This document shows, piece by piece, positions 4,740-61,900 of a stretch of 64,000 nucleotides of DNA. The position numbers and the translations under genes were made by a program. The stretch comes from Lepisosteus oculatus (Eukaryota; Chordata; Actinopteri; Semionotiformes; Lepisosteidae). The DNA lies in the NCBI RefSeq assembly GCF_040954835.1, contig NC_090723.1, positions 8,318,001 through 8,382,000 of the forward strand, written 5' to 3'. Position 1 is the first letter of the stretch. Each line of letters starts with the position of its first letter. Under the pieces are notes generated by a model that saw nothing but the letters and a program-made list of their open reading frames with translations, did not search any database and was not told where the DNA came from.

Positions 4740-5299
4740 CCTCTTTGTTTTTACCTTTTCATTTCTGTTTCTCTTCTACAGTGTTCCTCCTGGCATTGCT
4801 GGCTAACTCTTACCAGTCACTGTGCACAGTCAGAATCATGGTCTCAGCTCTATTGCTTGAGAACAGCAACCTTAACTTACCTGCCTCTTGGAAAAGAAGG
4901 GCAGTTGTGACTTTACAGCTATTAACTGCAATAAATTTAGAACCATTTCCTGGCTCAGTTGGAGTACTTTGTGCTAAGATCTTTACTACAGTCACTGTTA
5001 AGACTTATTAATGACCTTCCCTTTATGATGCACCTTTGCACCAGGTATATTGGGTTCTGCTTTATCACAGAACAATTGAAAAACTCAAGCAGTATTTAAC
5101 ATATTTCATCTTTTGTTGCCAAGAGCTTCTGGATAATATCTTGGGACAAATACCCTCTGGATGCACAGCCCTCTCCTGTGTTCGACAGCACCTGAGGCCA
5201 GAGGCACTGTTGATTTAGACCTAGATCTTGTTGTGATTCAGGTCTTGTTTTTTGGCTATTCAACTTTTTTTTCTGTGCCCATGATAGAGTTTTAGTACG

Positions 5300-5480
5300 T
5301 ATATCATTACCGAGGTTAATTACATGCTGAAAAGTAGAAAGATAAAACACAACCATTTGGCTGTGGAGTCTCTTCGGATAAGAAAGAGAGAGAGAAAAGC
5401 TTCAGGGATATGAGACAAAGGAAATTGGAAGAAAGCTCATGGGAATGGGCTGGGCAGGTGAGACAGACTGTGACTCCCAT
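5300..5480 (+). repeat. Dispersed repeat, copy 2
   Basis: It contains TGCTGAAAAGTAGAAAG, AAAACACAAC and TTTGGCTGTGGAGTC. These match segments of the copies near 1290 and 27350 in the same order. It is a degraded transposable-element fragment with no coding potential. Confidence 0.4.
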
Positions 5481-6795
5481 ATCAACCCATTACTTGTCAC
5501 CTGCTTTTTATACTGATAGGATAAGATGGGAGACTTCTGATCTTTAATAAAGTTTTGTTTTAAATCGTTTCTCCGAGCCCTTTGTATTGGCACAGCTCTG
5601 TTCTTCCCTTCACTTTCTAAATTTATCCTTCTCACTTTAAAATCCTCTTGCCAAAAATGCTCGCACACACTCAGCCCTGTTAACAGTGTGGATGAACGAT
5701 ATCAGAAGATCCTAAGGGGGGGGGGGAGCGTGCAGACATCTGCGTCTTCCTTTTCCTCTGCAGAATGGGAATGGCGTTATCTGGTCTGGTTTGGAGAGGC
5801 GAAGACGATTGCATGCTTTCATTAGGAGCAGCCAACCGGCAGCCCTGGTCTGAAGCTGTGTTTTCCCAAGCGGCTGCTTGGCCAGACCATGTGCAGCCGA
5901 CTGAAGGCAGAGACAGGAACGCCAGCCATGTGACCTTGTTTGTCACCGAGGAATACCGATCAGAAACAGAGCAGGGCCTGTCTCCCACACAGCGCGGCAC
6001 GCAGGCAGGAGCAGCTGTTACCTGTGGGGCATCTAATCTCCTCTGGCTCCCATCTGCTTAAATTAAACTGTGACAGGACCAAGCCTTTTCTTCTTGGTAG
6101 GTCTGTTCAGCTATATCAAGTTTTGATTTGGGTAATTTTAAGCTCTGGGAGTGTTCTGTGATATTGCTTGTGTTGGGTCCTCTTTGTTTTAATGATGATC
6201 TCCCAGGTGTTTTTGCCCCGATATCTGGTTCCATTCTGAATTCGGGGGAGGTGGGGTGCGCATGTCACGTTTGCCAGAGGGTGGTTAGGTTCCGGCTCTC
6301 TGTGTTGAGGTGGTGTTGTTTTTCCTGAGATTGGTGCAGTGTCCTGATTGCATTCGTCAACCCCACGGGTAAGAAGTGGGATGTGATCTTAAATGAAATG
6401 CCGTCTGAAGGGGTGTCTCTGGTGCTCTTTGCTCACTGAACGCTGCAATCGCTGGGCTAAGCCCAGGCCCTGTGAGCCAGCTAGGCATTGCGAATGACCA
6501 TGAACTTTGACAGGATTTCCCAGCAAGTTTAGGCTACATGTTCTCAGCATGGCCGACCAGTTGCTCAGACGGTTATTTCGCTTTTCGAGTGGCAGCAACA
6601 AAGTAAACCCGCTTTGTCAGATCCTGCGTGAATACGCTGAAATGGAGCCGGGGTCTCCTGCCTCAGACAGAACATCCGTCCCTTGTTCTTCTTGCCCTGG
6701 CAGGAGGAAGGAAAGACGGAACTGGAAAAGGGGGCATCGCCTTCAGGAATCGCGGTTTCTTAGCACTCCTGATGCGAGCGTCCGGGCTGTTCTGA

Positions 6796-9269
<2,474 letters not shown>

Positions 9270-38534: not shown

Positions 38535-38700
38535 ATTTTTTTTTTTTTACACACTGCTTGTGCTGAGTTTTTAAGTTGAGTGTTATTTAACTTTATTGCT
38601 GCTGCTGCTTTGTGTTTAAGTTGGTGTTTCCTTAATGTATTTGTATTGGAGCATACGTACTAATCAGCCTTTAATTGCGCTTGTGCAAATAATTCCTTAC
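38535..38700 (+). mobile_element. LINE/SINE 3'-tail-like repeat, second copy
   Basis: ACACACTGCTTGTGCTGAG, TTATTTAACTTTATTGC, TTGTATTGGAGCATAC and AATTGCGCTTGTGCA correspond in order to the copy at 19400-19620. Repeat family C starts directly after it. Confidence 0.55.
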
Positions 38701-39180
38701 AGTTGTATAGCACTTTTCGGGACACTCCACTCCAAGCGCTTTAAAGGTAATGGGGATCCCCTCCACCACCACCAGTGTGCAGCCCCACCTGGATGATGCA
38801 CTGGCGCACTATGGCTGCTGTCGCACTCGCCACACACCAGCTATCAGTGGGGAGGAGAGCAAAATGATGAAGCCAATTTATATATGGGCATTATTAGGGG
38901 GCCATGATTGGTAAAGGTCAATTGGCAATTGGCCAGGATTTTACCCAAGGATTTTAATGACCACAGAGAGTCAGGACTTTACATCTCATCCAAAGGACGT
39001 CACCTTATTACAGCATAGTGTCCCCCGTCACTATACTGGGGCATTAGGAACCACACAGACTGCAGGGTGAGCGCCCCCTGCTGGCCCCACTCACACCTCT
39101 TCCAGCAGCAACCTTAGTTTTTCCCAGGAGTCTCCCATCCAGGTACTGACCAGGCTCAAACCAACTGAGCTAAAGTGGGG
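38690..39180 (+). repeat. Dispersed repeat family C, nearly full length
   Basis: It begins with a GTATAGCACTTTTCGGGACA-type end, runs through CACTCCACTCCAAGCGC, GGGGATCCCCTCCACCACC, GTGTGCAGCCCCACCTGG, ACACACCAGCTATCAGTGG, GACCACAGAGAGTCAGGAC, GGAACCACACAGACTGCAGG and GCGCCCCCTGCTGGCCC, and ends near CAGGTACTGACCAGGCTC. Other partial copies lie at 18060, 28640, 31675, 44109 and 55295. This is the most complete one, about 490 bases. No terminal inverted repeats or coding capacity are seen, so the class is uncertain. Confidence 0.8.
39071..39086 (-). promoter_or_regulatory. CTCF consensus motif carried by a dispersed repeat
   Basis: GCGCCCCCTGCTGGCC is the reverse complement of the canonical CTCF core (GGCCAGCAGGGGGCGC) without mismatch. 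It is part of repeat family C and lies about 320 bases upstream of the GRN start codon. Confidence 0.5.
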
Positions 39181-39408: not shown

Positions 39409-42400
39409 ATGCTGAAGGGGGGAGTCCTCTGCCTGTGCTGGCTGGCCCTGGCCTCGGCCCTCAGGTGTCCCGATGGGGGGCTGTGTGAAGACGGAAGCAC
39501 GTGCTGCCGGAGCCCCTCGGGCAGATACAGCTGCTGCCCCCTGCCTCACGTACGTATGTCCCCTCGCTGGTGCGGTCGTCGCCGGGGGCGGGCCTGCGTG
39601 CACGTGGCCGTCCCAAACGAGGAGGTCGTGTGCACGCCGGCCGGACTCGGGGTGGGGGGGTGGGGTTTCTCCTCCGCTGGTCCTGGGGAGCCGGTGTTAC
39701 GGGTCGCGATCGATAGATTCAGAAGACCTGAAAAGGTCGGAGGTGGGTGATCCCTTTAATCATAAAGGGGAGATCATTACCGCCCAAAATCAGAAGACCT
39801 ACTCGCGCCCGGGACTGGAGTTCGCTATACTGAACCGAAGGCTTAATTAATTAACGATGCGGTCATTCCCAATCTTTACAAACAAGTGACCTATAAAACC
39901 ATCAGGTCTGTGGCTCTCGAGGGCCCAGCTTGTCGGTACTGCACCGGGGTTCTGTTGATCTAAATCGTACCAGGCGTATAATGTATTCTGCCGTGGGGGC
40001 AAACCAGGACTCTGAGCTGCCTGACTTATTTTAACAGCTTCTGCATTCCTGTTTCAAAGGAGGAAATCAGATGCGCTTTGAAGCACAGTGTAAACAAGGT
40101 GTACAAAGACTTTTTTTCCCCCCTCCCAACTCCTTCTTCCTTATTGCTGCGGTGTTGCGCAAAGACATTTGACTGCTTTGTTTCATTTAGTGCATAAAGC
40201 TTGTGTGTTGAATGGAGAGCAAGCAGGGGAGTTTGCATTCCTAACCCAAGAATTTGGCCAATAAAATGATCTTATCTTAAAGTCAGACATTCAACAGAAG
40301 TACCTTTTTCATTGTGCTAATTTCCCTGCACTTCAGGTTTCTTTATCAGAGTAAACATAATTGAGCCCTGAAAAAGAGGGGTTTTCAACTTCTTAACTCA
40401 GACGGCAGTGTGGCATAGCGTTTTGGGGTTGAAATTGAAAGGATGTGGGTTTGAATCCGAGTTGGGGTACTGCCAATCTACTTTTGAGTTGGTGGCATCC
40501 CTTGGACTGCTTCAGTCTGGCAGTACAAATTGGTGCAAAAGTTTGTTTTTCTGCCAATTCCATCCAAACCGTAGTATTTTTAATCACTCTTCTGCTAGCT
40601 GTTCAGGGGAAAAAAATTAAGGAAATAGATTTAAAGGGGAACTACAGTCCCAATTTTGTGGTAACAAAATAAATTAATAAACGGTATAGAAAAAGTTTAA
40701 AATTTCGAATGAAGCACAAAATTGTGGAAAATGCTGTAAAGTCACCGAGAGCAAGAGTTCTCCCAATCCGTGACATGATGCAGCCCTTCCTGCTCACTAG
40801 TCCCTGTAGTGACTAATGTAATGAGATGCCTGCTGCACAATCTGTACTCATTCGCTTCTACATTTCACTGTAGAAATGTTTGTGATCTGCAGGCAGGGTT
40901 AACAAATTAGTATTTGTCCGCAAAACCATCTCCAAGTTGAAAGCAATATTTCTATTGGATTAAAAGAGATGTATTCACACGCCTGCTTGTTTATAGTGTA
41001 ATAGGGCAGCTTCACCTCACTGGAAGCTGAGTTGCCTCGTTCTGAATCGCAGAACTTGGTGTTGCACATACCTGGAAGTTTAATCTATTTGGTGATTGGA
41101 TTGGAGGTTTTACATGTAATGTGTGCGTTTGACTTTTATAGTGGTTTGAAATCAGTGCTGATTCTTTCTAAACCCAAAATATAAAAATAGCATTGAAGTT
41201 CCCCTTTAAATGACTAGATGGTTACCAGCAAAGTTTTTCAAGAAGTCTGTTTGATGGATCGCGGATCTGTATATTTTTAAATCATCTGTGGCCAATTGGA
41301 TCATGTTTTCAGGCCGTGTGCTGCGAGGACCACAAGCACTGCTGCTTCGAGGGCACGGTGTGTGATGTGAAACACTCGGAGTGCCTCAACAAGACCTCCT
41401 CCGTCCCCTGGGTGGAAAAAGTCCACGCGCAGGTACCCGAGTTTCCACTGGTAAAGACACGATTAGCATTTTTCTTTAACTAGTTATTTTGATAATTAAA
41501 ATCAATTTGATCAATTAAAAAAAAAAAGTGGTCTTTGTGCACCAGTTTGCACGTGTTGTTTTGCACAGACTTTTCAGTAGTGTTGTCTTGTACAACTGGA
41601 ACAGTGGGGTGGTGCGATGGCTCTGTAGCTAAGGAAGGTTGCTGGTTCGTATCCCGCGGCCGGCAGAGGAATCCTACTCCGTTGGGCCCCTGAGCAAGGC
41701 CCTTCACCCCAGCTGCTCCAGGGGCGCCGTATAAATGGCTGACCCTGCGCTCTGACCCCCAGCTTCTCTCCCTGTCTGTGTGACTCATGGAGAGCAAGCT
41801 GGGGTCTGTGAAAAGACAAATTCCTAATACAAGAAATTGTATATGGCCAATAAAGTGATCTTATCTAAATGTAAGCCAAAAAGAATATGTATGGTCAGTA
41901 CCGTTAATGGCTCACTATTACCTAATAAAATGCTCACTTTCCTTTCCTTTGAATTTACCAGCTGTCCAGTTGTTTTTTGCGAAAACTTTGTGAATACATT
42001 TTTTTTGGTTTGTTTTACAGAGTGTAAGCTCTTTCCCCATGTTCCACTCTGGCCCAGAAGACAACAATTATCAGAATGTCTGCCCAGATAATACAAGGTG
42101 CCCCTGGGAATACGCCTGTCTGCAGACTGCTGCAGGGTCCTATGGATGCTGCCCCTTACCCCAGGTGATTATGGTTGCCTTTTTCGGTTAAAGAATTGCT
42201 AATTATATTTATCACCCATTCCTGCAGGTGCTCCAGGCTCTCCCAGTTATTAAAGATCTGTCAGGAGGTTGGTAGTGTGACACTATGAAGAATGGAAATG
42301 AGCAAGAAGGTGAAGAGGCTGTGTTTAGAGACCTGGCCTTCAGCAGCTGATATGAGGCTGATGAGGACTTTCCACCAAGAACAGTTCCTTTCCAGACAGA

Positions 42401-45400
42401 CTCCACAACATTTGCATGATGGGGTGACAAAAGCAACTTGGAGCGGTTTTAGCATTCCCTCACCTGGCTGAGGAAAATCAATCCAGGGCACAGTTATCCG
42501 ACCACTCGGTGGAGCCAGCTGCTGCAAGGGCACAGATGACTTTGATCTGTATTTGATAAATATCCTGCTTGATATTAACTTGGGATATATACTCCCGACA
42601 GTGGATTTCTGTCTGTAGGACTGGAATAAGTAAGTCCTAGAGGGTGGTCAGTAGTGCAGTGTGCTGATGCTTCGTATCCGACACCTCTTCAGGTGAGAAG
42701 GGGTTTGAGAATCCAGGTTGTCAAACGGTGACAGTTTAATGTATGCAACAGTCATTTTAGGACTTTCAATGCTGGGAGCAAGGGGGCATTAGAGTTGACA
42801 CTCGTTGCAGAAGAAGTCCCCCACCCACTTATTCTTGGGAAGGGGGGCTACAGCAAGTCGGAGGACTCGAGAGCAAGAGCTGATCCCAGGGTCCCAGCGC
42901 TGCGGGGCAGCAATGCTAAACACTGTGCCATCCTAGATTTATTCTTTTATAAAATGAATGTGTACTTTTATACTGAATAGCATTCTTCTGCTGATCATCC
43001 ATGCACTTTCACACACAGTGCACCATTCTTGCAAGCAGCTAAATCTCAATGCACAGCACTGAAAGACATTTTAAACCACAAAACTGGAAACGGATGCATT
43101 GCGTTAAAGAATTAGTCCTGGTGCTCTTCTACGTTCATCCAACTCGCCCTTCCACGAAGTGCCAGTGGTTTAATAGTGCAAGGCACAAGTGTTAACTGCC
43201 ACCTGCTCAATACTTCTAGTCTATTACTACACTACAGAACTGCTAGGACAGGACCTCGTGTTGCCCTTTTCTCACTGGCTGCTGGAAGCGTCAGCCTGTG
43301 ATCTCAAAGGGTAAAAGGTCATCTTAATCCTCATTGTAAGCAGAGGGTGGACATTGTATTGACTCAACGTCCGGTTAGTCTCTTTGGATCTTCTTTTCTA
43401 GCTTCTAATATTCTGGGGTTTTATTAGTATGTTCTGCATTCTTATTTATCTAGCCTCCTTCTTTTTCTAGGCTGTCTCTTGTGCTGATGGCAGACATTGC
43501 TGTCCTGAGGGCTACCAGTGCAGTGAAGATGGGACCTCCTGTACTCGGAGCAAAGGTGTGCATCCATTGACTTGGATTATACTCAAGACAGTGGATTCTA
43601 GTCTTTGATAAAGGAAATGCTTTAAAAGCACAGAAGTAACTTAATGAAAGCCAGGTTTTTCCATGGTGGAATTGTTCCTAAATGCCTAATGCTGACGTAG
43701 TTCTAAAATGTCCATTAGCAGCCCTGAACCTAATTCTGTGGGTTAATATTATTTCTAACTTGATTGGTAGAAGTGGCAGTACTTAGAGCTCATGTCTGAG
43801 AGGGGGTGGGGAGGATCGTGTCTTGTAACTGGAGACTTAACCCTGCACTTAACGTGAGCAGAACAAGCATTTTGCATTTGTACTGATCTTGGTCTTTGGC
43901 TTCTCTGGCACTTGATTCTGCAGAGCTGTCTGGAGCGCGGGCGATTATCTGTCCCGATGGGGAGTCGGAGTGTCCCAGTCATGCAACCTGCTGTCCACTT
44001 CCTGATGGCTCATGGGGCTGCTGTCCCTTAGTGCAGGTATGGAAGCCCCACGCAGAGGCTTCATTTAAGCTCTCAGCCTTTGCACTTTGTGTTGGCTCTC
44101 GGTTTCAGTGAATGTCATCCAGGCAGGGCTGCACATTGGTGGTGGAGGGGATCCCCATTACCTGTGAAGCACCTTGAGTGGAGTGTCCAGAAAAGTGCTA
44201 TATAAGTGTAGGCAGTATTAGAAGTGCTTGTTGTGTATGCAAGCCAAGATTCCCCAAGCAGTGGCTCACAACAGGGAGGCTGACACATGAGAGGTCTGGT
44301 GTGTGTTGCCCAGAATCCTGTCTGGGGAATAACGGCTGTGACCTGCTGGATTGCATTGAGGTTGGCTTGACACACTTGGATCGGTGAATGGGTGTCTTTT
44401 TTTTTTTTTTTTTTAGTGAGTTAGGTTGCCTGGAAAATGCGGTATGTGGGTGTTGACTTGTGCATAAGCGGGCATGGATCGTGCCGATTTGCATTAGGGC
44501 CTAATCCGACCCCCGGTCTGTCGTCCTGCCTCAGGCAATCTGCTGTGATGACAAGAAGCACTGCTGTCCCCAAGGCACCAGATGTGACATGCAGCACTCC
44601 CGGTGCTTGTCTGGGACCAAGGAGATGCCCATGTGGAGCAAGATCTCAGCAAGGAAAAGGGCTGGAGGCCAGCGAGGTGACCTGTCCCGCTTTTCCCCCT
44701 TAGGCCTGGATTCAACAAAAATGTGTTCCATATGCCAGTCGCAAATTACAAGCTACTGCTTTATTAAGACTTTTAAAAAGGGGCAGAAAAAAGACAGTGT
44801 AATGTTATCTTCAGGTTTTACCTGAACAGTGATTCTGTGGAGCTGCCAGTGCGTGGTTCGAGACGGTGCTGGATGTACACTCGCCACCTATGTGCTTTAA
44901 GCCCTCCAGTGGGAATGTTTTGGGCTTTTGCTGGCCATGAAAGTCGTTGATTGATATGGCATGTTTTCCATAATTTGCGACTCCCTTGTTATAGCACAGG
45001 AATGGACAGGGCTCGTCCTGGAGGACTGGTATGTCTGCAGATTTTCTAGGTGTCTTCAAAGCAGTAGAATGTTAAGAGCTGGAAGGAGCTGTTAAGTGGG
45101 GTCCGTTAAACCAGCAAATATGTTTAATACCAGTTTGTTCTTAAGAGTAGGTTTTGAACGGTAAGCTGCTGGCCCCCCCTTATTTCTTAGTTTCCTTCCT
45201 CTGTGTTCTGTACAGTTCTGGATGTGAACTGTCCAGACGGCGTGTCCAAGTGTCCAGATAACACCACCTGCTGCCAGAAGGAGGGCGGTGGATACGGCTG
45301 CTGCCCTTTCCCTGATGTGAGTGTCTGATAGTTCCTCGCCGCGCTGCAGCCCTTCTCACTCTAAAGGCTCCCAAAGAGCTTTACGTGTCGGAGCTGATGC

Positions 45401-48400
45401 ACCTGCAGCTCCAGCCCCTCTACAGCAGCATCCTCATGACCCCGCAGGCCAGGGGGAGGGGCGAGAAGCTGCTCCACCAGTGGGGCTGAGCGGGAGCTTC
45501 AGGGAGGCCCGACTCCCAGCCCAGAGCGGGACGGAGCCAGTGTTGCTCATGCGAGTGTCTGCTGTTCCCAGGCTGTGTGCTGCACTGACCACGTGCACTG
45601 CTGCCCCAGCGGTACGACCTGCGACCTGGAGCACGGCATGTGCTCGTCTGCCGAGAGACAGACCCCCCTGCAGAAGAAGCTCCCTGCTCTGCTTGAAGTC
45701 AAGGAAGGTGAGGTCTCCTCGTTCCTGATCAGCCTGTCATCACCTGTTCCACTTCTGTCTTGAGAGCTTGCAGATGAGAGAGAAGGCCATTCTTCTCCGT
45801 AACCTACAGACACCCAGGTTTATCCACCCCTGTTCTAGGAGGATCACCTCCAGTTGAGCTTGTAATGAGGGTGATGGTGTGTGGTGCTAAACTGCACACT
45901 GCTCTGGTTCCACCATTCTGCAGCAGAAGTGAGATTGGGGCTCTCTAGTGCCATGAAGAGAACATGGCTTCTCTAGAGGTAATGAAGATTGTAGCTTGTC
46001 TTCACCATCACTTTTATTCCTGTGTTCCACGTTTGAAGGTGGCCTGCTCTTCTGCTCAAAATTATAGGTAGGGCTGACCTCACTGTGAAGGTGGTGTCTT
46101 ATATTAAACTCCTCTGATGTGCTCAGTGGCTTTTGTTAGGCTACCTTGTATTTTGGCTCTGGTGCCTCTAACTATACTTACCACTCGGTTAAATTCTTGG
46201 CAAAACTTTTACATTTTGGGATAAAATTAATCTTATCCCGATCTGTGTTTTATATTTCTTTACTGTTTTATTAATAAGAATATAACATGGATATTTAAAC
46301 AAAACAACTTCCTCTGTTCTGTTTAGCTCTGACCGAAGGAGATGTGAACTGTCCAGACGGCGTGTCCAAGTGTCCAGATAACACCACCTGCTGCCAGAAG
46401 GAGGGCGGTGGATACGGCTGCTGCCCTTTCCCTGATGTGAGTGTCTGATAGTTCCTCGCCGCGCTGCAGCCCTTCTCACTCTAAAGGCTCCCAAAGAGCT
46501 TTACGTGTCGGAGCTGATGCACCTGACTCCCAGAGCGGGACGGAGCCAGTGTTGCTCATGCGAGTGTCTGCTGTTCCCAGGCTGTGTGCTGCACTGACCA
46601 CCTACACTGCTGCCCCAGCGGTACGACCTGCGACCTGGAGCACAACAGATGCACGTCTGCCGAGAGACAGACCCCCCTGCAGAAGAAGCTCCCTGCTCTG
46701 CTTGAAGTCAAGGAAGGTGAGGTCTCCTCGTTTCTGATCAGCCTGTCGCCACCTGTTCCACTTCTGTCTTTTGAGAGCTTGCAGATGGGAGAAAAGGCCA
46801 TTCTTCTCCGTAACCTATGGACACCCAGGGTCCTCCACCCCTGTTCTAGGAGGATCACCTCCAGTTGAGCTTGTAATGAGGGTGATGGTTTGTGGTGCTA
46901 AACTGCACACTGCTCTGGTTCCACCAGTTTGCAGCAGAATTGCAATCTAGGAAATTGCTGGTATGTCTCTAGGAGCCAGGAAGTGAACATTGCTACTCTG
47001 GGAGGAATGAAGATGGTAGCTTTGTCATCGCCATCACTTTTATTACTGTGTAAACGGTTTAAAAGTGGGGTGATCTTGTACTCAAAACAAATGATAAGGC
47101 CGAGCAGTATGTGAAGGTGATGTACAATATTAAACTTCTCTTTGCTCACTGGTCTTTGTTAGGCTTGCGTATGTTGTTACAATTATTGAAGAGTCAACAT
47201 TTTCAGTTCTTGTGGCTTTAAAGCAACAAGTAGGAGCTAAGGTGCTTACCAAGTTGTCGATGGTGGGAGCCGGATAAGTTGAACAACACTGTCACTCCCC
47301 ACAAACAACCATTTGAGTTCTACAGGACACTAAAAAGACAATACCCACTTGCCGAATATCAGACCAGGTAAGAAATGGCAAAGAGAAACGCACGCTGATG
47401 AAGTACAGGCTTGATGACCACAGTCTGGCCATAGAAACTGGGTGGCACAGGCAGACCTGGCTTTCCAGAGAAGACCGCTGTTTTTCTCACTTCCAGTGGG
47501 GAGAAGCAGAGACGGAGAAGCACTGTGAAAAATACCATGGGGTTAGACATTCTTCACAAAAATAAATCACAATCCCACACCTGTCAGACTCAGAATTATT
47601 TCCAAACCTCCTCCTGGGAGAGGGAGGAGGAAACTCAAGCTGCAGCCCAGAATGTGATCTCCTCCTGTCAGGGCCTAAGGATCAGTTGGCCTGACTCCCC
47701 ATGTTTCCCTAGTTAAATAGCTCCTTGGTGAATCATTGAGTTCTTATCAGCCTAGAAACATAAGATAAAGGATGGATAGGGAGAAGCAGGAAGGGTTGAG
47801 AAGTGTGCCAGGCAAGAGGACCTTGTTCTGATCAACCTTAAGATTCCAGCTAAGTATTTGAACCCATTTAAGAGAGTTTTAGTAAACCCTGATTTCCTTT
47901 ATGAGGAATCCCTAGGCTAGAGATGTTCTCTCCTGGTTAGGGATGCATTTTTAGGTTTTAGATTCCCATTCACTTTGGACAATCTGGATTTATAGGAAGG
48001 GGGATTTAGCTCAGAATTGTGTTTTTTTGAAGCACAGGTTTCTCTCTTGTGGCCTGTTTAGATATTGTATAGGATGGCTAATACTAGGTTAGCAGTGGAG
48101 GGATCCTGAGTAGTTAGGTTTGTAGGCCTCTGAAACACCTTGTCTGTAAATACAGTAATCTAGTGTGTCGTAACTAATCCAGTAGAGTTTAGTTTCTCTA
48201 GATATTGTTACTTATCGTAGTTTGGCACAGCTCAGGCAAAAGATTAATACATGAGGTTGAGGGCAAACAAGTTGTGTGCCTCCAACTATACCAACAATTT
48301 GGCTATATTCTTGGCATTTCTTTAACAATTCATAATCATTTTAAATCATTCTCCTCTATATTCTCCCCCTTTTCATAATTTTAACATGGAAGGTTAAATA

Positions 48401-51400
48401 ATTGAAACAATTTCCACTTGCTCCGTTCTGTGCAGCTCTGACCGAAGGGGACGTGAACTGTCCAGACGGCGTGTCCAAGTGTCCAGATAACACCACCTGC
48501 TGCCAGAAGGAGGGCGGTGGATACGGCTGCTGCCCTTTCCCTGATGTGAGTGTCTGATAGTTCCTCGCCGTGCTGCAGCCCTTCTCACTCTAAAGGCTCC
48601 CAAAGAGCTTTACGTGTCGGAGCTGATGCACCTGCAGCTCCAGCCCCTCTACAGCAGCATCCTCATGACCCCGCAGGCCAGGGGGAGGGGCGAGAAGCTG
48701 CTCCACCAGTGGGGCTGAGCGGGAGCTTCAGGGAGGCCCGACTCCCAGCCCAGAGCGGGACGGAGCCAGTGTTGCTCATGCGAGTGTCTGCTGTTCCCAG
48801 GCTGTGTGCTGCACTGACCACGTGCACTGCTGCCCCAGCGGTACGACCTGCGACCTGGAGCACGGCATGTGCTCGTCTGCCGAGAGACAGACCCCCCTGC
48901 AGAAGAAGCTCCCTGCTCTGCTTGAAGTCAAGGAAGGTAAGGTCTCCTCGTTCCTGATCAGCCTGTCACCACCTGTTCCACTTCTGTCTTGTGAGAGCTT
49001 GCAGATGAGAGAAGGCCATTCTTCTCTGTAACCTACGGACACCCAGGTTTATCCACCCCTGTTCTGGGAGGATCACCTCCAGTTGAGTTTATATTGAGCG
49101 TGATGTGTGATGCTAATCTGCACGTTGCTCTGGTTCCACCATTCTGCAACAGAAGTGAGATTGGGTGTCTCTAGTGCCATGAAGAAAACATGGCTGCTCT
49201 AGAGGTAATGAAGATTGTAGCTTGTCTTCACCATCACTTATTCCTGTGTTCCACGTTTGAAGGTGGCCTGCTCTTCTGCTCAAAATTATAGGTAGGGCTG
49301 ATCTCACTGTGAAGGTGGTGTCTTATATTAAACTCCTCTGATGTGCTCAGTGGCCTTTGTTAGGCTACCTTGTATTTTGGCTCTGGTGCCTCTAACTATA
49401 CTTACCACTCGGTTAAATTCTTGGCAAAATTTTAACATTTTGGGATAAAATTAATCTTATCCCGATCTGTGTTTTATATTTCTTTACTGTTTTATTAATA
49501 AGAATATAACATGGATATTTAAACAAAACAATTTCCACTTGCTCCGTTCTGTGCAGCTCTGACCGAAGGGGACGTGAACTGTCCAGACGGCGTGTCCAAG
49601 TGTCCAGATAACACCACCTGCTGCCAGAAGGAGGGCGGTGGATATGGCTGCTGCCCTTTCCCTGATGTGAGTGTCTGATAGTTCCTCGCCGCGCTGCAGC
49701 CCTTCTCACTCTAAAGGCTCCCAAAGAGCTTTACGTATCGGAGCTGATGCACCTGCAGCTCCAGCCCCTCTACAGCAGCATCCTCATGACCCCGCAGGCC
49801 AGGGGGAGGGGCGAGAAGCTTCTCCACCAGTGGGGCTGAGCGGGAGCTTCAGGGAGGCCCGACTCCCAGCCCAGAGCGGGACGGAGCCAGTGTTGCTCAT
49901 GCGAGTGTCTGCTGTTCCCAGGCTGTGTGCTGCACTGACCACGTGCACTGCTGCCCCAGCGGTACGACCTGCGACCTGGAGCACGGCATGTGCTCGTCTG
50001 CCGAGAGACAGACCCCCCTGCAGAAGAAGCTCCCTGCTCTGCTTGAAGTCAAGGAAGGTGAGGTCTCCTCGTTCCTGATCAGCCTGTCACCACCTGTTCC
50101 ACTTCTGTCTTGTGAGAGCTTGCAGATTAGAGAGAGAAGGCCATTCTTCTCCGTAACCTACAGACACCCAGGTTTATCCACCCCTGTTCTAGGAGGATCA
50201 CCTCCAGTTGAGCTTGTAATGAGGGTGATGGTGTGTGGTGCTAAACTGCACACTGCTCTGGTTCCACCAGTTTGCATCAGAATTGCAATCTAGGAATTTG
50301 CTGGTATGTCTCTAGGAGCCAGGAAGTGAACATTGCTACTCTGGGAGGAATGAAGATGGTAGCTTTGTCATCGCCATCACTTTTATTACTGTGTAAACGG
50401 TTTAAAAGTGGGGTGATCTTGTACTCAAAACAAATGATAAGGCCGAGCAGTATGTGAAGGTGATGTACAATCATTCTCCTCTATATTCTCCCCCTTTTCA
50501 TAATTTAACATGGAAGGTTAAACAATTGAAACAATTTCCACTTGCTCCGTTCTGTGCAGCTCTGACCGAAGGGGACGTGAACTGTCCAGACGGCGTGTCC
50601 AAGTGTCCAGATAACACCACCTGCTGCCAGAAGGAGGGCGGTGGATACGGCTGCTGCCCTTTCCCTGATGTGAGTGTCTGATAGTTCCTCGCCGCGCTGC
50701 AGCCCTTCTCACTCTAAAGGCTCCCAAAGAGCTTTACGTGTCGGAGCTGATGCACCTGTAGCTCCAGCCCCTCTACAGCAGCATCCTCATGACCCCGCAG
50801 GCCAGGGGGAGGGGCGAGAAGCTGCTCCACCAGTGGGGCTGAGCGGGAGCTTCAGGGAGGCCCGACTCCCAGCCCAGAGCGGGACGGAGCCAGTGTTGCT
50901 CATGCGAGTGTTTGCTGTTCCCAGGCTGTGTGCTGCACTGACCACCTACACTGCTGCCCCAGTGGTACGACCTGCGACCTGGAGCACAACACGTGCACTT
51001 CTGCCGAGAGACAGACCCCCCTGCAGAAGAAGCTCCCTGCTCTGCTTGAAGTCAAGGAAGGTGAGGTCTCCTCGTTCCTGATCAGCCTGTCACCACCTGT
51101 TCCACTTCTGTCTTGTGAGAGCTTGCAGATTAGAGAGAGAAGGCCATTCTTCTCCGTAACCTACAGACACCCAGGTTTATCCATCCCTGTTCTAGGAGGA
51201 TCACCTCCAGTTGAGCTTGTAATGAGGGTGATGGTGTGTGGTGCTAAACTGCACACTGCTCTGGTTCCACCAGTTTGCAGCAGAATTGCAATCTAGGAAT
51301 TTGCTGGTATGTCTCTAGGAGCCAGGAAGTGAACATTGCTACTCTGGAAGGAATGAAGATGGTAGCTTTGTCATTGCCATCACTTTTATTACTGTGTAAA

Positions 51401-54400
51401 CGGTTTAAAAGTGGGGTGATCTTGTACTCAAAACAAATGATAAGGCCGAGCAGTATGTGAAGGTGATGTACAATCATTCTCCTCTATATTCTCCCCCTTT
51501 TCATAATTTAACATGGAAGGTTAAACAATTGAAACAATTTCCACTTGCTCCGTTCTGTGCAGCTCTGACCGAAGGGGATGTGAACTGTCCAGACGGCGTG
51601 TCCAAGTGTCCAGATAACACCACCTGCTGCCAGAAGGAGGGCGGTGGATACGGCTGCTGCCCTTTCCCTGATGTGAGTGTCTGATAGTTCCTCGCCGCGC
51701 TGCAGCCCTTCTCACTCGAAAGGCTCCCAAAGAGCTTTACGTGTCGGAGCTGATGCACCTGCAGCTCCAGCCCCTCTACAGCAGCATCCTCATGACCCCG
51801 CAGGCCAGGGGGAGGGGCGAGAAGCTGCTCCACCAGTGGGGCTGAGCGGGAGCTTCAGGGAGGCCCGACTCCCAGCCCAGAGCGGGACGGAGCCAGTGTT
51901 GCTCATGCGAGTGTCTGCTGTTCCCAGGCGGTGTGCTGCACTGACCACCTACACTGCTGCCCCAGCGGTACGACCTGCGACCTGGAGCACAACACGTGCA
52001 CGTCTGCCGAGAGACAGACCCCCCTGCAGAAGAAGCTCCCTGCTCTGCTTGAAGGTGAGGTCTCTGGAAACGAGGGGTATTCAGCAGATTAAGTCTTCTA
52101 ATCCCTTGTGCCCAATGGACTCTTATTAATAAGGTTTAATGCTTGTCCACCATTCCATCATGGGTCACTCATGAATGATCAGTTTATCAAAATGATGCTG
52201 AAAAGCATTCAAAGCGGGGACTTGTTTATATTAGATAGCTTGATGAGAAGGACTAAATATCCTGCTGTCCAGGTTTTAGTTTCTCATGTTCTTGGATTTC
52301 TAAATAAATGTGTTTGATTAGCAAACCTTCTTTTCATTAATTATATTGTAAATGAAGTTTTTTATTTTTACCAAGTTCAGGTGTGATCTGAGGTTATTAG
52401 GATGCACTGTGACGTTGTCGTGTCCTCCACGTGGTACTGAATAGTGTCCACCTCAGCTTGGATTGATATTGAAGTAAATCGAAGTTCCTTCCTCGGTCAG
52501 ATGGTTAGAGGTTGTTCATCATAAATGTGTTTTGCACAACCACCATGGAATACTGGAGGGGATCAATAGTGTAACTGAAATGAAAACATCGGTCACTGGG
52601 TGTCGGGAAGCAAAAGATTGCAGATCCTACGAGCAAAATCATTCATGTGATGTCTACCCACTAGACCTGACTAGCCTAGAAATCCTTCTTTTCTCTCGTA
52701 GTCAAAAGTGTGAAGTGCAACGATACTGCATACTGTCCCCATGACACTACCTGCTGCAAAACTGCAAAGGGAGAATGGGCATGCTGTCCATTCCCCAAGG
52801 TAAGCACTTTTAATGGTACGGAGTAAAGTAACTGTTCAATATCCATTTACATGGGATAGGGTTTGGGGTCTCAATTGGCTAATAGACAAGTGATGTGAAA
52901 GTGACCGTTTAAGGCCTTTGAGGAATAGTTGTGGCTGTAGGGTCGAAAGTTCTTATTTTAAAGCTTTTTGCCCTCGGGACACGAGCTGTTGATATTTTAT
53001 CGATATCTGTAGAAAAAGGCTAGCATGTAGCATTCGGTTAAATGATGGGGGACCCTTCTTGACAGGCAACCAAGAGCTTCTGCATGCATTAATGATGTGT
53101 TATTCCAAATAGTGTAAAGTTAGACTGGTCGATTTACAAGTGGAGCTCTCAAACATTAACATTTTGACTGTTTCTAGGAACCAGATGCGTTAATTTAGTT
53201 ATCCTCTTCTCCAAGATGAATCTGAGTGTTTTGCTTAAGGATAGTTCTGAAAAACAAACTGTTGTCCCCATATGTTTGGAGTTTTCCAGACTTCTGTAGA
53301 GGCTTTGATCCATCTGTGGTTTTACACTGTGGCCAAAACCTATATTTTTCTGCTGTAGTAACCAAAATGCTATTCATCTAACGGCACAACTGAGATTGTT
53401 GCATATAATTAAGAAGCTCAGATTTGATGCTTCCATTTTCTAGATTTTATTAACTCCAGTCATTGAGAAACCAGGTTCTACAAGTTTTTGTTTTAAAAAA
53501 AAAAAATTCTGAACTAAAATTTAGTTCCTGCTGTTGAGATGGGAATTTTTCCTGACCTGTGTTCTAAGGTATTCAGTCCCTGGATCAGGATCTATGCAGA
53601 GTGAAGGGAATCTCTGGAATAAATCCAGAGAATTGCAGTGGAGTCATCTCTGGGGTGATTGAGGGTGTTCCTCTGTGTGCCCTTCCTCCCCCAGGCTGTA
53701 TGCTGTGAAGACCACGCTCATTGCTGTCCACAGGGCACCACCTGTGACCTTACCGCTGGCTACTGCAAGTCCTCCACCCTGTCCGTTCCCTGGTTGGAGA
53801 AGGAGCCCGCCAAGACGGGGGAGCCCATCGGACCTGGGGGTGAGAAGGGTGTGAAGTGTGACCCCGAGACCAGCTGCGCGGCTGGAACGACCTGCTGCCA
53901 GCTGCCCACCGGCAAATGGGGCTGCTGTCCCCTGGTCAAGGTAAGGCAGGGCCAGAGAGTCCTCCATCGTTACAGCAGGTTTGAGTTGGCCAAACTCAAG
54001 ATGTCCGACCCTCCCCGTCCACCAACAGGACCTCGAGGTGCTCCCTCAAGGTGGCTGACAAAGTCTCGGCTGATCGCATCTGTCCTTAAATCTTAAAAGG
54101 TTTGCCAGCTGCAAATGATCTGAAGTTTAGTGTAAAAGTTTTGATCACGTTGTTTTCTGGCCAAGAATGTGCAGGCTACCCGCTAGTGATATCCAGTAAT
54201 GATATGGGGGGCTTCAGAATAGTGTTAACCATGTTACAGGTTCTGGACCACCACAAGAGGAGTTTAAATTGCCCGTCCCCTATAAATAATTAAGTCAATT
54301 TTGAAGGATAATTGACCACTTTGATACCAATGCAATTTAAAGTTTGTTTTTAATATTGCTTTAACGTGTTTGATTTTTGTGTTCACCTGTGGGTGGGCGT

Positions 54401-55895
54401 TTTGAGGGTCATGTTCGACTCATCCACTGACGACGTGCTGCGCTTTCTTTGGCTTCAGGGGGTGTGCTGCTCGGATCACGAGCACTGCTGCCCACAGGGC
54501 TACTCCTGCAACATCAAGGCCGGCACCTGCGAGAAGCGCCACGAGGGCGTCCCCTGGGTGTCCCGGAGCTTCCCCGCGGTCCTCGTGTCCCCCTCGGAGC
54601 AGCGCCCCAGGAGGGACGTGCAGTGCGATGAGGAGCATCGCTGCCCCGACTCGCAGACCTGCTGCAGGACCTCCTCCAGTTCCTGGGGCTGCTGCCCTTT
54701 CCCCAAGGTACCCTGACACTTCCAGTGCAGAGCGCATCTCGGGAGTTGCAGTATCCAAACATTTTCCGTGTCTCGCACTCCAGTGCAAATGCAAGGAGGA
54801 GAGGGGCAGGAAACTATAAATGTAAAGAAAATGACTTGCAGTTGTTTTCTGAAATACCCTTGTGTAAGAAAGTCACGGTGAGAACAATGTAGATATATAT
54901 TCGTGCAAGGTGTTCATGTTCTTGTGCACATGTGCTTTCACTTTAGCACTTCAAAAACTTTAAAGTGCAGTTTTAGGCCTTAGTCTAAAAGGAGTGTCAA
55001 TATGACATCTCACCATCGCAGTGGTACACCTTACTGGAATGTGGGTGCTTGTTGCTTACCAGCCAAACAGCTCTCCAGTTTACATGGTGCACCATGGAGC
55101 TAAATTTATGTGTGCATGGGGAAACCATGTGTCCCAGGGCTTGAGTCAAACCATCACCTCAGACTGGAGCAGTTCTTGTGCATTCTCTTCTAGCAGGCAC
55201 TATTTGCAGTGCCCTCTGCTGCTTACCATTACTGTCCAAAGATGGGACCTTTTTCCTTAATTCCCCACGAATCAAACATAATTGCTCAGCAGTATTGCTT
55301 TCACTTATATAGCGCTTTTCTGGACACTCCACTCAAAGCGCTTTACAGGTTATGGGGATCCCCTCCACCAGCACCAGTGTGCAGCCCCACCTGGATGATG
55401 CGCCAGTACTCTCCCCAAACACCAGCTCTCAGTGGGGAGGAGAGCAGAGTGATGAAGCCAATTCATAGATGGGGATTATTAGGAGGCCATGATTGGTATG
55501 GGACATTTGGCCAGGACGCCGGGGTTACACCCCTACTCTTTTCGAGAAACACCCTGGGATTTTAATTGACCACAGAGAGTCAAGACCTCGGTTAAAATGC
55601 TGTACGCGTGGGGACGTCATGTCATCTTAATTTTTAATTCCCCGCACTCGGCCGATGAGTGAGGCTGCAGCAGTATGGTGGCACTGGGTGCGCTTGTGCT
55701 GTTCAGCTCTTCTGGGCTCCAGCTGACCGAGCGGTGGTGTCTCTGCAGGCCGTGTGCTGCGACGATCAGAAACACTGCTGCCCCTCTGGATACTCCTGCG
55801 ATGGCGCTGGAGGGTCGTGTGTCCGGGATGGGCGTCTGACCTGGGATATGTTCTTCACGGAGAGGGAGAGAGCCTTAAACCACAACACTTTGTAA
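39409..55895 (+). CDS. GRN: Progranulin (GRN) with 12 granulin modules, complete coding region
   Basis: Progranulin is a secreted, lysosome-delivered glycoprotein cleaved into granulins. Exons: 39409-39549, 41313-41450, 42021-42164, 43471-43555, 43924-44036, 44535-44676, 45216-45316, 45572-45707, 46327-46436, 46581-46716, 48436-48545, 48801-48936, 49557-49666, 49922-50057, 50560-50669, 50925-51060, 51563-51672, 51928-52054, 52702-52799, 53695-53940, 54459-54707, 55749-55895. Phases are consistent, giving about 986 aa (human 593). A signal peptide covers about residues 1-18. Granulin modules start near residues 20, 114, 180, 260, 342, 424, 506, 588, 670, 746, 828 and 911; most have 12 cysteines with four CC pairs. 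Module 2 has only ten, like human granulin G ([10 protein letters not shown]). Modules 4-9 are near-identical. The ATG directly follows an acceptor. The second exon could instead end at 41432 (also in phase). Downstream modules share whole exons (53695, 54459). Confidence 0.93.
40200..40278 (+). mobile_element. 3' fragment of SINE family B
   Basis: GAATGGAGAGCAAGCAGGGG, then CCTAACCCAAGAATT, then TTGGCCAATAAAATGATCTT match the 3' end of the copies at 26068 and 41597. It lies in the GRN intron between 39549 and 41313. Confidence 0.7.
40395..40530 (+). mobile_element. Degenerate tRNA-like SINE head
   Basis: GTGTGGCATAGCG (A-box-like) is followed about 35 bases later by GGGTTTGAATCC, an excellent B box. 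The rest resembles no other element in the window. Confidence 0.5.
40631..41209. mobile_element. TTAA-flanked MITE (T2/Kolobok-like)
   Basis: TTAA duplications at 40631-40634 and 41206-41209 flank a 571-base element. Its ends are AGGGGAACTACAGT (left) and AGGGGAACTTCAAT (right end read on the other strand), matching at 12 of 14 positions. The TTAAAGGRR-type ends are typical of T2 MITEs, placed in the Kolobok superfamily. It has no transposase. It lies in a GRN intron, upstream of the second coding exon. Confidence 0.75.
41597..41867 (+). mobile_element. tRNA-derived SINE (family B), second full copy
   Basis: It shares GCCGGCAGAGGAATCCTACT, GAGCAAGGCCCTTCACCCC, TATAAATGGCTGACCCTGCG, ATGGAGAGCAAGCTGGGG and the tail TATATGGCCAATAAAGTGAT with the copy at 26068. 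The B box (GGTTCGTATCCC) is well kept. It lies in the GRN intron between 41450 and 42021. Confidence 0.85.
42850..42937 (-). mobile_element. SINE head fragment, reverse orientation
   Basis: Read on the minus strand: AGGATGGCACAGTGTTTAGC, then ATTGCTGCCCCGCAGCGCTG and GGACCCTGGGATCAGC. This matches the tRNA-derived head of SINE family A type elements (A box and B-box-like end). The body is absent or degraded. It lies in the GRN intron between 42164 and 43471. Confidence 0.5.
44109..44225 (-). repeat. Dispersed repeat family C, 5' part, reverse orientation
   Basis: Minus-strand reading gives TTATATAGCACTTTTCTGGA, CACTCCACTCAAGGTGC, GGGGATCCCCTCCACC and TGTGCAGCCCTGCCTGG. It lies in the GRN intron after the exon ending at 44036. 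Confidence 0.75.
45216..52054 (+). repeat. GRN: Tandem array of six granulin two-exon units inside GRN
   Basis: Each unit has a first exon of 101-110 bases ([15 protein letters not shown], then GYGCCPFPD), a 255-269-base intron, a second exon of 136 bases (AVCCTDH, then [13 protein letters not shown], then [13 protein letters not shown]) and an inter-unit intron. Units: 45216-45707, 46327-46716, 48436-48936, 49557-50057, 50560-51060, 51563-52054. Each cycle adds exactly 82 codons and keeps frame. Unit 1 has a shorter first exon; unit 2 lacks about 110 bases of its internal intron; unit 6 has a shortened second exon (127 bases). Exons and introns are both nearly identical between copies, so the duplications are recent or homogenised. 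In human GRN the matching position has a single granulin (B by linker sequence). Confidence 0.92.
47120..48350 (+). other. Extra segment in the intron between array units 2 and 3
   Basis: This about 1.2 kb segment lies in the long-B intron and is missing from the two short-B introns (50058-50559, 51061-51562). Its first part resembles the class A introns (shared ATATTAAAC, GCTCA and TTTGTTAGGCT segments), so it is ancestral rather than inserted. No exon is recognised within it. Confidence 0.6.
55295..55625 (+). repeat. Dispersed repeat family C, 5' and middle part
   Basis: It begins TTATATAGCGCTTTTCTGGA and continues CACTCCACTCAAAGCGC, GGGGATCCCCTCCACC, CACCAGCTCTCAGTGGGG, GGACGCCGGGGTTACACCCC and GACCACAGAGAGTCAAGACC. 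It lies in the last GRN intron, ending about 125 bases before the final exon. Confidence 0.8.
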
Positions 55896-58930: not shown

Positions 58931-61900
58931 ATGCCCCGCAGGAAGGTAAGAATGTATCTGTCTTTGAAGACGCCTGAATTGTTTTATTTTTAATGGTCAT
59001 GGGCAAAAAGCCTTTTGCACAGCCCTCAGGACTGTCAGGGCTGTGTTAAAGATGGTTGCCTTGTTTTGGGGAATTTACGTGCAAATTGTATCCCGTTTCG
59101 TCTTCGCCGACGCTTACATTTAGGCATTTCCACCCAAAAAACAACTTGGGGATTCAAAATATTTTGAAGAAAATCGTAAAACACGCCTCCCGTCGGCTTC
59201 CATCTTGGCTTGCTCGGCTGGTCGCAGTTGGCGCCCCCGCGGCTGAGGAAACTACTAGAAGCCGAGGCTGCAGTCGGGGCCTGAGGATAAGAACGGAACC
59301 TCCGCCAGCTGTGTTAGGATTGGTGGATCTGCGGGCTGGGGGGCTTGTTCATTGGTGCTGGAGGCTGCCTGTCAAGGATTACTCCCGCCTTCGATCTCTC
59401 CTGATTGGTCGGTGTGTTTTGGAGCGCTGTAACTGGCTCCTTTTGCTAGGAAGAGCCTTTGTTATGGAGTAAGCGGGGTTCCGTTATTGTAGTAGGTGGT
59501 GGTTTGTTTTTTGCGGAAAGGATGCACAAGTTATGGAATTCGTGATTGGTGACCACTAAACGTTTGTTTTTTCTGTCCTGAGCGTTTTCTACCTCGTTTA
59601 ACCCATCTATGCAAAAGGTGCACTCTGGGATCGGTGCGGGCGGAAGTGAGCAGCTCCCGGAGGCAGCGTGTTTCTTGTGCTCCCAGCAGCTGGTTGTTAC
59701 AGTGTGGGGGGGGGGTTCTAGACGCCCACATCTATCCGGGTGGGGTTGTGTTGCTAAGGATACTGCTCTTCCGGCCAAACATTAGCTGAACAAGTTGTGC
59801 ATTTCAGTAAGGAAAGGTAAAAACAGATTACAGTCGGTAAACATGACGTGAAGTCTCCCCTCTGTATTTGGGAGAATACTTCTTGTGTGAGTTGTGCGGA
59901 CCTTTTGCAGCGTGAAATGATTCACTCTGAATTTGCGGACTCTGAACGCACTGGCACAACAAAGAAGGAAAACTTCCCTTTCTCCACCCGTTGGTAATTG
60001 CGGAACTTTATAAGTGCTTTTCCGCTGGGGCTTTCTGGACTCGATCCTTGTTCTCGGATTAGGGGAGTGTCTTTCTTGTGTACGCTATTGGCGAGTAAAT
60101 CGCAGGCCATATTCGTTTACACGGTTACCGTGGTAACCGCTACCCACAATCCCATTGTGCTGAGTATTTCGGTTCACTCCATTAGTGACAATGTACTGTT
60201 GTTACTCTTTGAGACCAACCGGTCACAAATTCCAGTTGCACCACACGTACTTAATACAGGGCGATGTGTTAGTTTATTCCTAGGCAAGGCGAGATGGAAC
60301 CTGTTTTCAATGCGGATGTCGCAGTGGGCTTGGCCAAGAATGTGGGAATAAAAATAAAATGGTTTAAATTAAATTGTATAGAACATACAGTAGACTCGCC
60401 ACGCATATCTCTAGATCTCTTGGTTTGGCTGGGTTTGATCAACTATTTTGTTATAATTATTTCATCAAGTCAGTTGAGCGGCAACGGATATATAAATCGT
60501 TGCATATTTACATTCGCTCTGTTGCTCTGAATATAGATGTTCAGGAGCTACAACCATAAAATTCAGGCTTCTATCTCTTGTTTCTGGTCACTTATTAAAA
60601 TTTAGTTCTGGGTTAACAGGGCAGCGGTAGTCCGACTATGACGAAAGAATGTGTTTAAATTATAGCTGCTGGAAAGATTTAGGCAATCTTGCAGAGGCTG
60701 ACACCCAAAACATTGATCCGAATCGACCGAACCCAAGAGAAATTCGCCCTGTGCGCTCGGGTCTGAAGACACCGTGACATAAGGAGGCACTTCATGTTAA
60801 ATGTTAAAGCAAAATTCTTTAAACGGGTTATTCTCTCACTATCGTGCATCCATTTTAAACAGGTGCTATGTTTTGTGCTACGGCAGTTGTACAGTAGGTA
60901 ACACTAACCTCTGGACAAGAATTTCCAAACTAGTGCCCTAGTATGGTGACACTGAGAGACCGCAGTGTTGAAGGAGGTGACATGAGGATTTTGCTTTCCA
61001 TTCAGATTAGAACACAAGAAATATAGCAAACAAGAGGTGGCCATTTGACCAAGCCAACCAGTGTAAATCGAGGCATCGAGGCAGCAGGTAGCCTGGCCCT
61101 GTCCATTACCCGAGAGAACTATTAACTGTGTGTGGAGAGAAGGGAGCGAGGAAGCAGAAAACCTGTGGGAAATAGAGGGCAGAGGACAGTATCTCAAGAC
61201 GCTGTGAAAAACGATGTCATGTTAAAGTAAAGAGTGGGATTTGCATCGGAACAAGATAAATTGTTGCTATGTAACTGTTACTGTGTTGAAACTTAATGAG
61301 ATGTGATCATATATACTGTTTTAAGTATGTATATTAATGTAAAGCTCTCTATTTTGTGATTCCCTGTATTTGTGAAAAGAAAATAAAGTTCTTAAAACTC
61401 AAAAATGGGAATGTGGTGGATATACCTGTATAGCTAACCATGCTTTTTTTGGTGTAGAGGAACGCAGGGAGCAGCTCTGATGGGACGGAGGACTCGGATT
61501 TCTCTGCCGACCTGGAGCACACGGACAGCTCGGAGAGCGACGTGAACTCGCGCAGGAACACGCGCCTGACCCGCGCCTCCGTGCGCCTCAGCCAGAGCTC
61601 ACAAGGTACCGCCGGGCCCGGCTGCCTTTGAGGGGGAACCAATCGACCCGACAGAGCTCGCTCCAGGAAGGCACGGCGCGAATTGGGCTGTGCGCCGAAC
61701 TGAAGGCACCCAAATTGCTAGGCAGGGTCCGATGGCTAGAGAATTGCCATTGGAGTTTCTGTAAGGGGATGTGAATTGTGCTTCTGAAATGCATCTGAAA
61801 AGTGAATGTTCTCTTCTTGAAAATTCGTTAATGAGTTGTACCTTGAAGTACAGTGGCATTCCTTACCTGACTTTTGGGATTAATGATTGAATGTGCTTTG

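Follow-up and report, generated by a model that had tools for sequence, protein, structure and literature searches.

The spotted gar, a non-teleost ray-finned fish, very probably carries a GrnA-type progranulin in which one granulin module has been expanded to six, the units descending from at least two old copies and their core having since been homogenised by gene conversion or unequal exchange, and the product would be a precursor of nearly equal granulins. One form of human dementia traces back to progranulin dosage, and how the protein is converted into granulins is under active study. With six nearly equal granulins in one natural precursor, it could be tested which of the two matters, module identity or module number.

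The progranulin gene and its six array units

The window analysed here, a stretch of 64,000 nucleotides (C31:8318001-8382000) from a 1.2-Gb, 813-contig genome, contains the progranulin gene on the + strand at 39409-55895. A splice model drawn up manually from the genomic sequence has 22 coding exons and 21 introns, all of them GT-AG, and its spliced frame of 2961 nt encodes 986 residues with a stop only at the end. The model bears out the original prediction of a progranulin of about 986 residues and about 12 modules: 11 modules contain 12 cysteines and module 2 contains 10 (5+5), and these 142 cysteines together with two in the signal-peptide stretch make up a total of 144. By gene model, splice sites and cysteine counts, exons 1-6 (39409-44676, + strand) encode the signal peptide and modules 1-3; the array supplies modules 4-9 (residues 255-740); and exons 19-22 (52702-55895, + strand) encode modules 10-12 and the stop, two of these exons combining a C half with an N half. 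A Pfam scan of array forms V and L-NT (two of three, described below) and of both parts flanking the array found PF00396 (Granulin) at 59.2 and 59.3 bits and at 150.4 and 157.3 bits, respectively, against a curated cut-off of 20.9. The best solved relatives of the array module, for which five sequences matched, are human granulin A (2jye, E 4.2e-18) and granulin-2/F (2jyv, E 4.4e-17).

At its C terminus (55749-55895) the protein reads ...NHNTL and so ends in leucine; the C-terminal leucine of progranulin matters for sortilin binding in mammals. Two SINE-like stretches, alike by eye, lie near the gene ends (38700-39150 and 55290-55600). Descent of intron 1 of the units from the SINE-like repeat at about 55300 was rejected, the local score of 22 being matched by 22 of 300 shuffles.

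Six consecutive two-exon units occupy 45216-52054, as had been predicted, each formed of an N exon and a C exon on the + strand and placed by the gene model and alignments. Unit 1 (module 4, 45216-45707; exons 45216-45316 and 45572-45707) has C-exon form V and is followed by an intron 2 of type I. Unit 2 (module 5, 46327-46716; exons 46327-46436 and 46581-46716) has form L (NR) and a type II intron 2, and unit 3 (module 6, 48436-48936; exons 48436-48545 and 48801-48936) has form V and type I. Unit 4 (module 7, 49557-50057; exons 49557-49666 and 49922-50057) is a mosaic that joins form V to a type II intron 2. Form L (NT) occurs in unit 5 (module 8, 50560-51060; exons 50560-50669 and 50925-51060), with a type II intron 2, and in unit 6 (module 9, 51563-52054; exons 51563-51672 and 51928-52054). 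Tandem Repeats Finder, whose longest period is 500, returned no row for the array when run on the window.

Unit lengths are 79, 82, 82, 82, 82 and 79 residues, so the predicted 82-residue repeat describes four of the six; the two shorter units are each three residues short, unit 1 near the start and unit 6 at the end (nine fewer coding bases at the 3′ end). N exons of the array enter in phase 1 and exit in phase 0 and C exons enter in phase 0 and exit in phase 1; a whole unit is thus a phase 1-1 cassette, and its gain or loss does not shift the frame. The reading frame is kept, as proposed earlier, with phase-1 introns bounding every unit and a single terminal stop, and splice sites, cysteines and linkers are intact in all six units, consistent with the view that the array is functional.

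The likeness of the array exons is far beyond chance. Comparing the units in all 15 pairs gives 0-3 differing positions for the N exon (101-110 bases) and 0-8 for the C exon (127-136 bases). The array had been thought to raise the molar yield of one granulin peptide; it encodes three slightly different core peptides in 3+2+1 copies, namely V (units 1, 3 and 4), L-NT (units 5 and 6) and L-NR (unit 2). These vary at four residue positions, all within 54 bases of the C exon, and the other variable codons of the cores are silent. Excess divergence of the C exon over the rest of the core appeared in units 1 versus 5 (p 1.9e-3) and 4 versus 5 (p 1.7e-3) and was absent from the other six of the eight pairs tested, three of which have identical C exons; we therefore set aside diversifying selection on this exon.

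GrnA assignment and genome context

A 10-cysteine variant in the second module, as found here, is the mark of the GrnA group given in the Fig 4 legend of PMC4527844. A genome search with the PF00396 profile, which scored 53 of 53 candidates, matched at least 15 places (the counts are lower bounds). They fall at two loci, the array gene and a short gene on another contig, C10, and no second long-form granulin gene (GrnB) was among these matches. The short gene (L009, about 5275-8474; C10:5.0 Mb) has about three modules in an apparent SN-CN-C-N-C layout and is GrnC-like; its contig also holds a Hox cluster.

A Hox13 query gave at least 80 matches (150 of 171 candidates scored), four of which, on C10, C1, C31 and C12, stand apart (E 8.8e-34 to 9.9e-29; next 4.1e-16). 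They indicate four Hox clusters and so point away from a teleost. Possible synteny with the human GRN region was judged from the surroundings of the gene. The progranulin gene shares its 10.9-Mb contig with one of the four, about 0.9 Mb away, which may be HoxB. Neighbours of the gene may be SLC25A39 and KAT7: the candidate for the former matches Mito_carr at E 0.042, under its cut-off, and a frame at 61458-61631, which seems to resemble the N terminus of the acetyltransferase KAT7, has no Pfam match.

The unit count is that of the assembly, and over 1 kb units 4 and 5 agree at about 98% of positions, as might be seen if the assembly had expanded the repeat, or collapsed and re-expanded it, and the true number of units differed. 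This seems very unlikely, given that every unit pair differs (units 4 and 5 at 17 positions), that the 6.8-kb array lies in a window free of N within the 10.9-Mb contig, and that PF00396 matches fall at two loci only, with counts that are lower bounds.

The intron mosaic and the probable origin of uniformity

The introns of the array combine near-identity with deep divergence. Intron 1 is 255 bases long in five units and 144 in unit 2, whose copy (46437-46580) lacks 111 bases found in the other five, and it differs at 0-4 bases in all 15 pairs. The ten pairs that units 1-5 form differ at 1-19 positions in the first 200 bases of intron 2. Identity over unit positions 1-690 is 94-99% in the eight pairs examined, lowest where unit 2 is involved. 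Distal intron 2, by contrast, comes in two types, type I in units 1 and 3 and type II in units 2, 4 and 5. Pairwise alignments place the types 19-22% apart and a multiple alignment 27-30% (positions 691-900) or 33-36% (691-1085), so that the spacer divergence of 19-36% varies with alignment and stretch. The earlier description of copied introns thus holds for intron 1 and only in part for intron 2. The intron after unit 6 has no match to intron 2 of the other units, and the five pairs with unit 6 were left out of this comparison.

In all six type I/II pairs, intron 1 differs at 0-3 positions (of 144 or 255) and distal intron 2 at 58-80 of 268-392 (Fisher p 1.7e-10 to 6.1e-17); the four within-type pairs give p values of 0.022, 0.71, 1 and 1. 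Units 1 and 4 show the boundary clearly, with 6 differences in 690 core positions and 56 in the 194 just beyond. Correspondingly, the nearest neighbour of unit 1 is mostly unit 4 up to position 684 and almost wholly unit 3 from 701. By permutation, 0 of 2000 arrangements were as extreme in six of seven triplets and 9 of 2000 in the remaining one, figures that, given the dependence between neighbouring sites, are descriptive. At its very end intron 2 is shared again, unit 3 following unit 4 rather than unit 1 from position 1093 on. Intron 2 of unit 2 also contains a stretch, delimited by alignment, of about 1.1 kb (47180-48276, edges approximate). The type I introns lack it, and units 4 and 5 lack it together with flanking sequence; GTTGT occurs near both of its edges, and no second copy lies within the window.

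This juxtaposition of a uniform core and a diverged distal intron 2 is best explained by exchange within an older array, and the mosaic, as read from sequence, suggests concerted evolution as the cause of the uniformity. One N-exon plus C-exon module would have multiplied to six, with units descending from at least two old copies that we see as the two distal intron 2 types. The core would since have been made near-uniform through gene conversion or unequal exchange between units. It would comprise the last bases of intron 2, the N exon, intron 1, the C exon and the first ~200 bases of intron 2, about 0.7 kb altogether, and the spacer, distal intron 2, would have kept its older divergence while the core exchanged.

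The homogeneity pointed out in the original prediction is no plain sign of recent six-fold duplication, for we find old divergence in distal intron 2 beside the homogenised coding core. If one unit had lately been copied five times, homogenisation would be superfluous; the starts of units 4, 5 and 6, exactly 1003 bases apart, and the introns 2 of units 4 and 5, with 4 differences in 502, fit such a history. It leaves unexplained, however, both the distal intron 2 types (19-36%) beside intron 1 (0-3%) and unit 4, where a V exon precedes a type II intron. For the whole array, recent duplication is already disfavoured, and we give it very little weight. The exact 1003-base steps do indicate that some whole-unit duplication was recent, and from the mosaic we infer that units 4-6 underwent it in addition to exchange in an older array.

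As to the means of exchange, conversion tracts are usually shorter than 300 bases (cited in PMC3484663), and the greater length of the ~0.7-kb core would count against gene conversion; the pattern is read here as the work of either conversion or unequal crossing-over. Constraint could in principle account for the likeness of intron 1, although 111 bases of it are gone from unit 2. In five units the GC content of intron 1 is 62.7-63.9%, and in unit 2 it is 58.3%; the gene's ten introns outside units 1-6, including the one after unit 6, range from 39.2 to 50.4%, and of the window's 1054 non-coding stretches only 22 have 63.5% or more. GC-biased conversion is nevertheless a weak candidate: the rise in GC that repeated biased conversion should bring is absent from third codon positions, GC3 being no higher in the array exons (71.2%) than in the rest of the gene (72.0%) despite the GC-rich intron 1. 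Spacer divergence would translate into an age of 57-417 My at K 0.25 and chosen rates, an illustrative range only. We put forward only tentatively, as possible but the less probable case, that the array is tens to more than 100 My old and has been held uniform throughout by conversion or exchange, with the V and L forms (at most four residues apart, within 54 bases) both kept. If true, it would show in a worked example how near-identical granulin arrays arise and persist.

Proposed precursor processing and relation to known arrays

All six units carry the linker PLQKKLPAL and an NTT sequon, and KKLPA-type linkers stand on both sides of units 2-6. In the human F-B linker ITPTGTHPLAKKLPAQR (...HPLAKKLPAQR), cathepsin L peptides end before KK and start at KKLPA and KLPA, and for human linkers G-F and B-A the same source reports no cathepsin L site (PMC5526245). 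The closeness of the PLQKKLPA linkers to this mapped site makes release of the repeated granulins plausible. The product would be a secreted, glycosylated precursor whose linkers are probably cut by lysosomal proteases, and, judging from the linker motif and human biochemistry, cutting would free up to six near-identical granulin F/A-like peptides; a yield of up to six near-equal granulins is thus plausible. Human cathepsin L is reported to be unable to free granulins F and B whole, and asparagine endopeptidase to free F (PMC8330050), which leaves the enzyme uncertain for the array. Because KKLPA-type linkers flank units 2-6 on both sides, the hindrance reported for human progranulin may be absent here.

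In Grn-/- mice, human granulin F or A on its own is enough for rescue, and a shared lysosomal function has been proposed (PMC11773623). Such sharing of function would fit a history in which six copies were favoured since each precursor gives more of one granulin peptide, as would the intact cysteines, linkers and frame of all six units. Yet pS is 0.018-0.090 and pN 0-0.035 over the 15 unit pairs, and pN is below pS in 14 of them (the exception being units 1 and 2, pN 0.035 versus pS 0.028), all on tiny numbers; exchange plus purifying selection suffices, and selected dosage appears unlikely; the copy number may instead simply drift.

Near-identical tandem modules recur in progranulins, being described in lamprey, Xenopus, coelacanth, elephant shark, zebrafish and Aplysia (PMC4527844), and this makes less of a rarity of the gar array, which shares with them both family and tandem layout. 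PMC4527844 records 11 identical modules of 13 in Aplysia, six similar modules in lamprey, a run of seven in Xenopus, strings of like modules in elephant shark and coelacanth, and modules 4-7 of zebrafish GrnA; its figure for zebrafish is that neighbouring modules differ at no more than five residues, and the gar cores differ at no more than four positions. Modules are likewise coded by split exons in zebrafish GrnA, oyster and Aplysia (PMC4527844). Its main text has no occurrence of words starting 'gar' or of 'gene conversion', and among titles and abstract openings we found no paper on the spotted gar progranulin array and, in the granulin literature on concerted evolution, gene conversion and unequal crossing, no mosaic of uniform core and diverged spacer.

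Zebrafish progranulins A and B have 10 and 9 modules, and human granulin G is a 10-cysteine module (PMC1310530), as is gar module 2. Human GRN has 7.5 modules and 593 residues (PMC9338584), against 12 modules, six of them near-alike, and 986 residues here; its granulins F and A resemble the array in their 12-cysteine modules and cathepsin L-cut KKLPA linker (PMC5526245). Amplification of a zinc-finger exon in teleost Piccolo b likewise multiplied an exon unit in frame in a fish gene, but in another gene and domain and with repeated exons of varying length; its author favours unequal crossover, with gene conversion still possible (PMC3484663). The authors of PMC4527844 call the origins of near-identical granulin modules unclear. 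This kind of array is already known; the gar gene adds the intron mosaic, which makes the question of repeated near-identical modules raised in the Conclusions of PMC4527844 testable across gars and bowfins.
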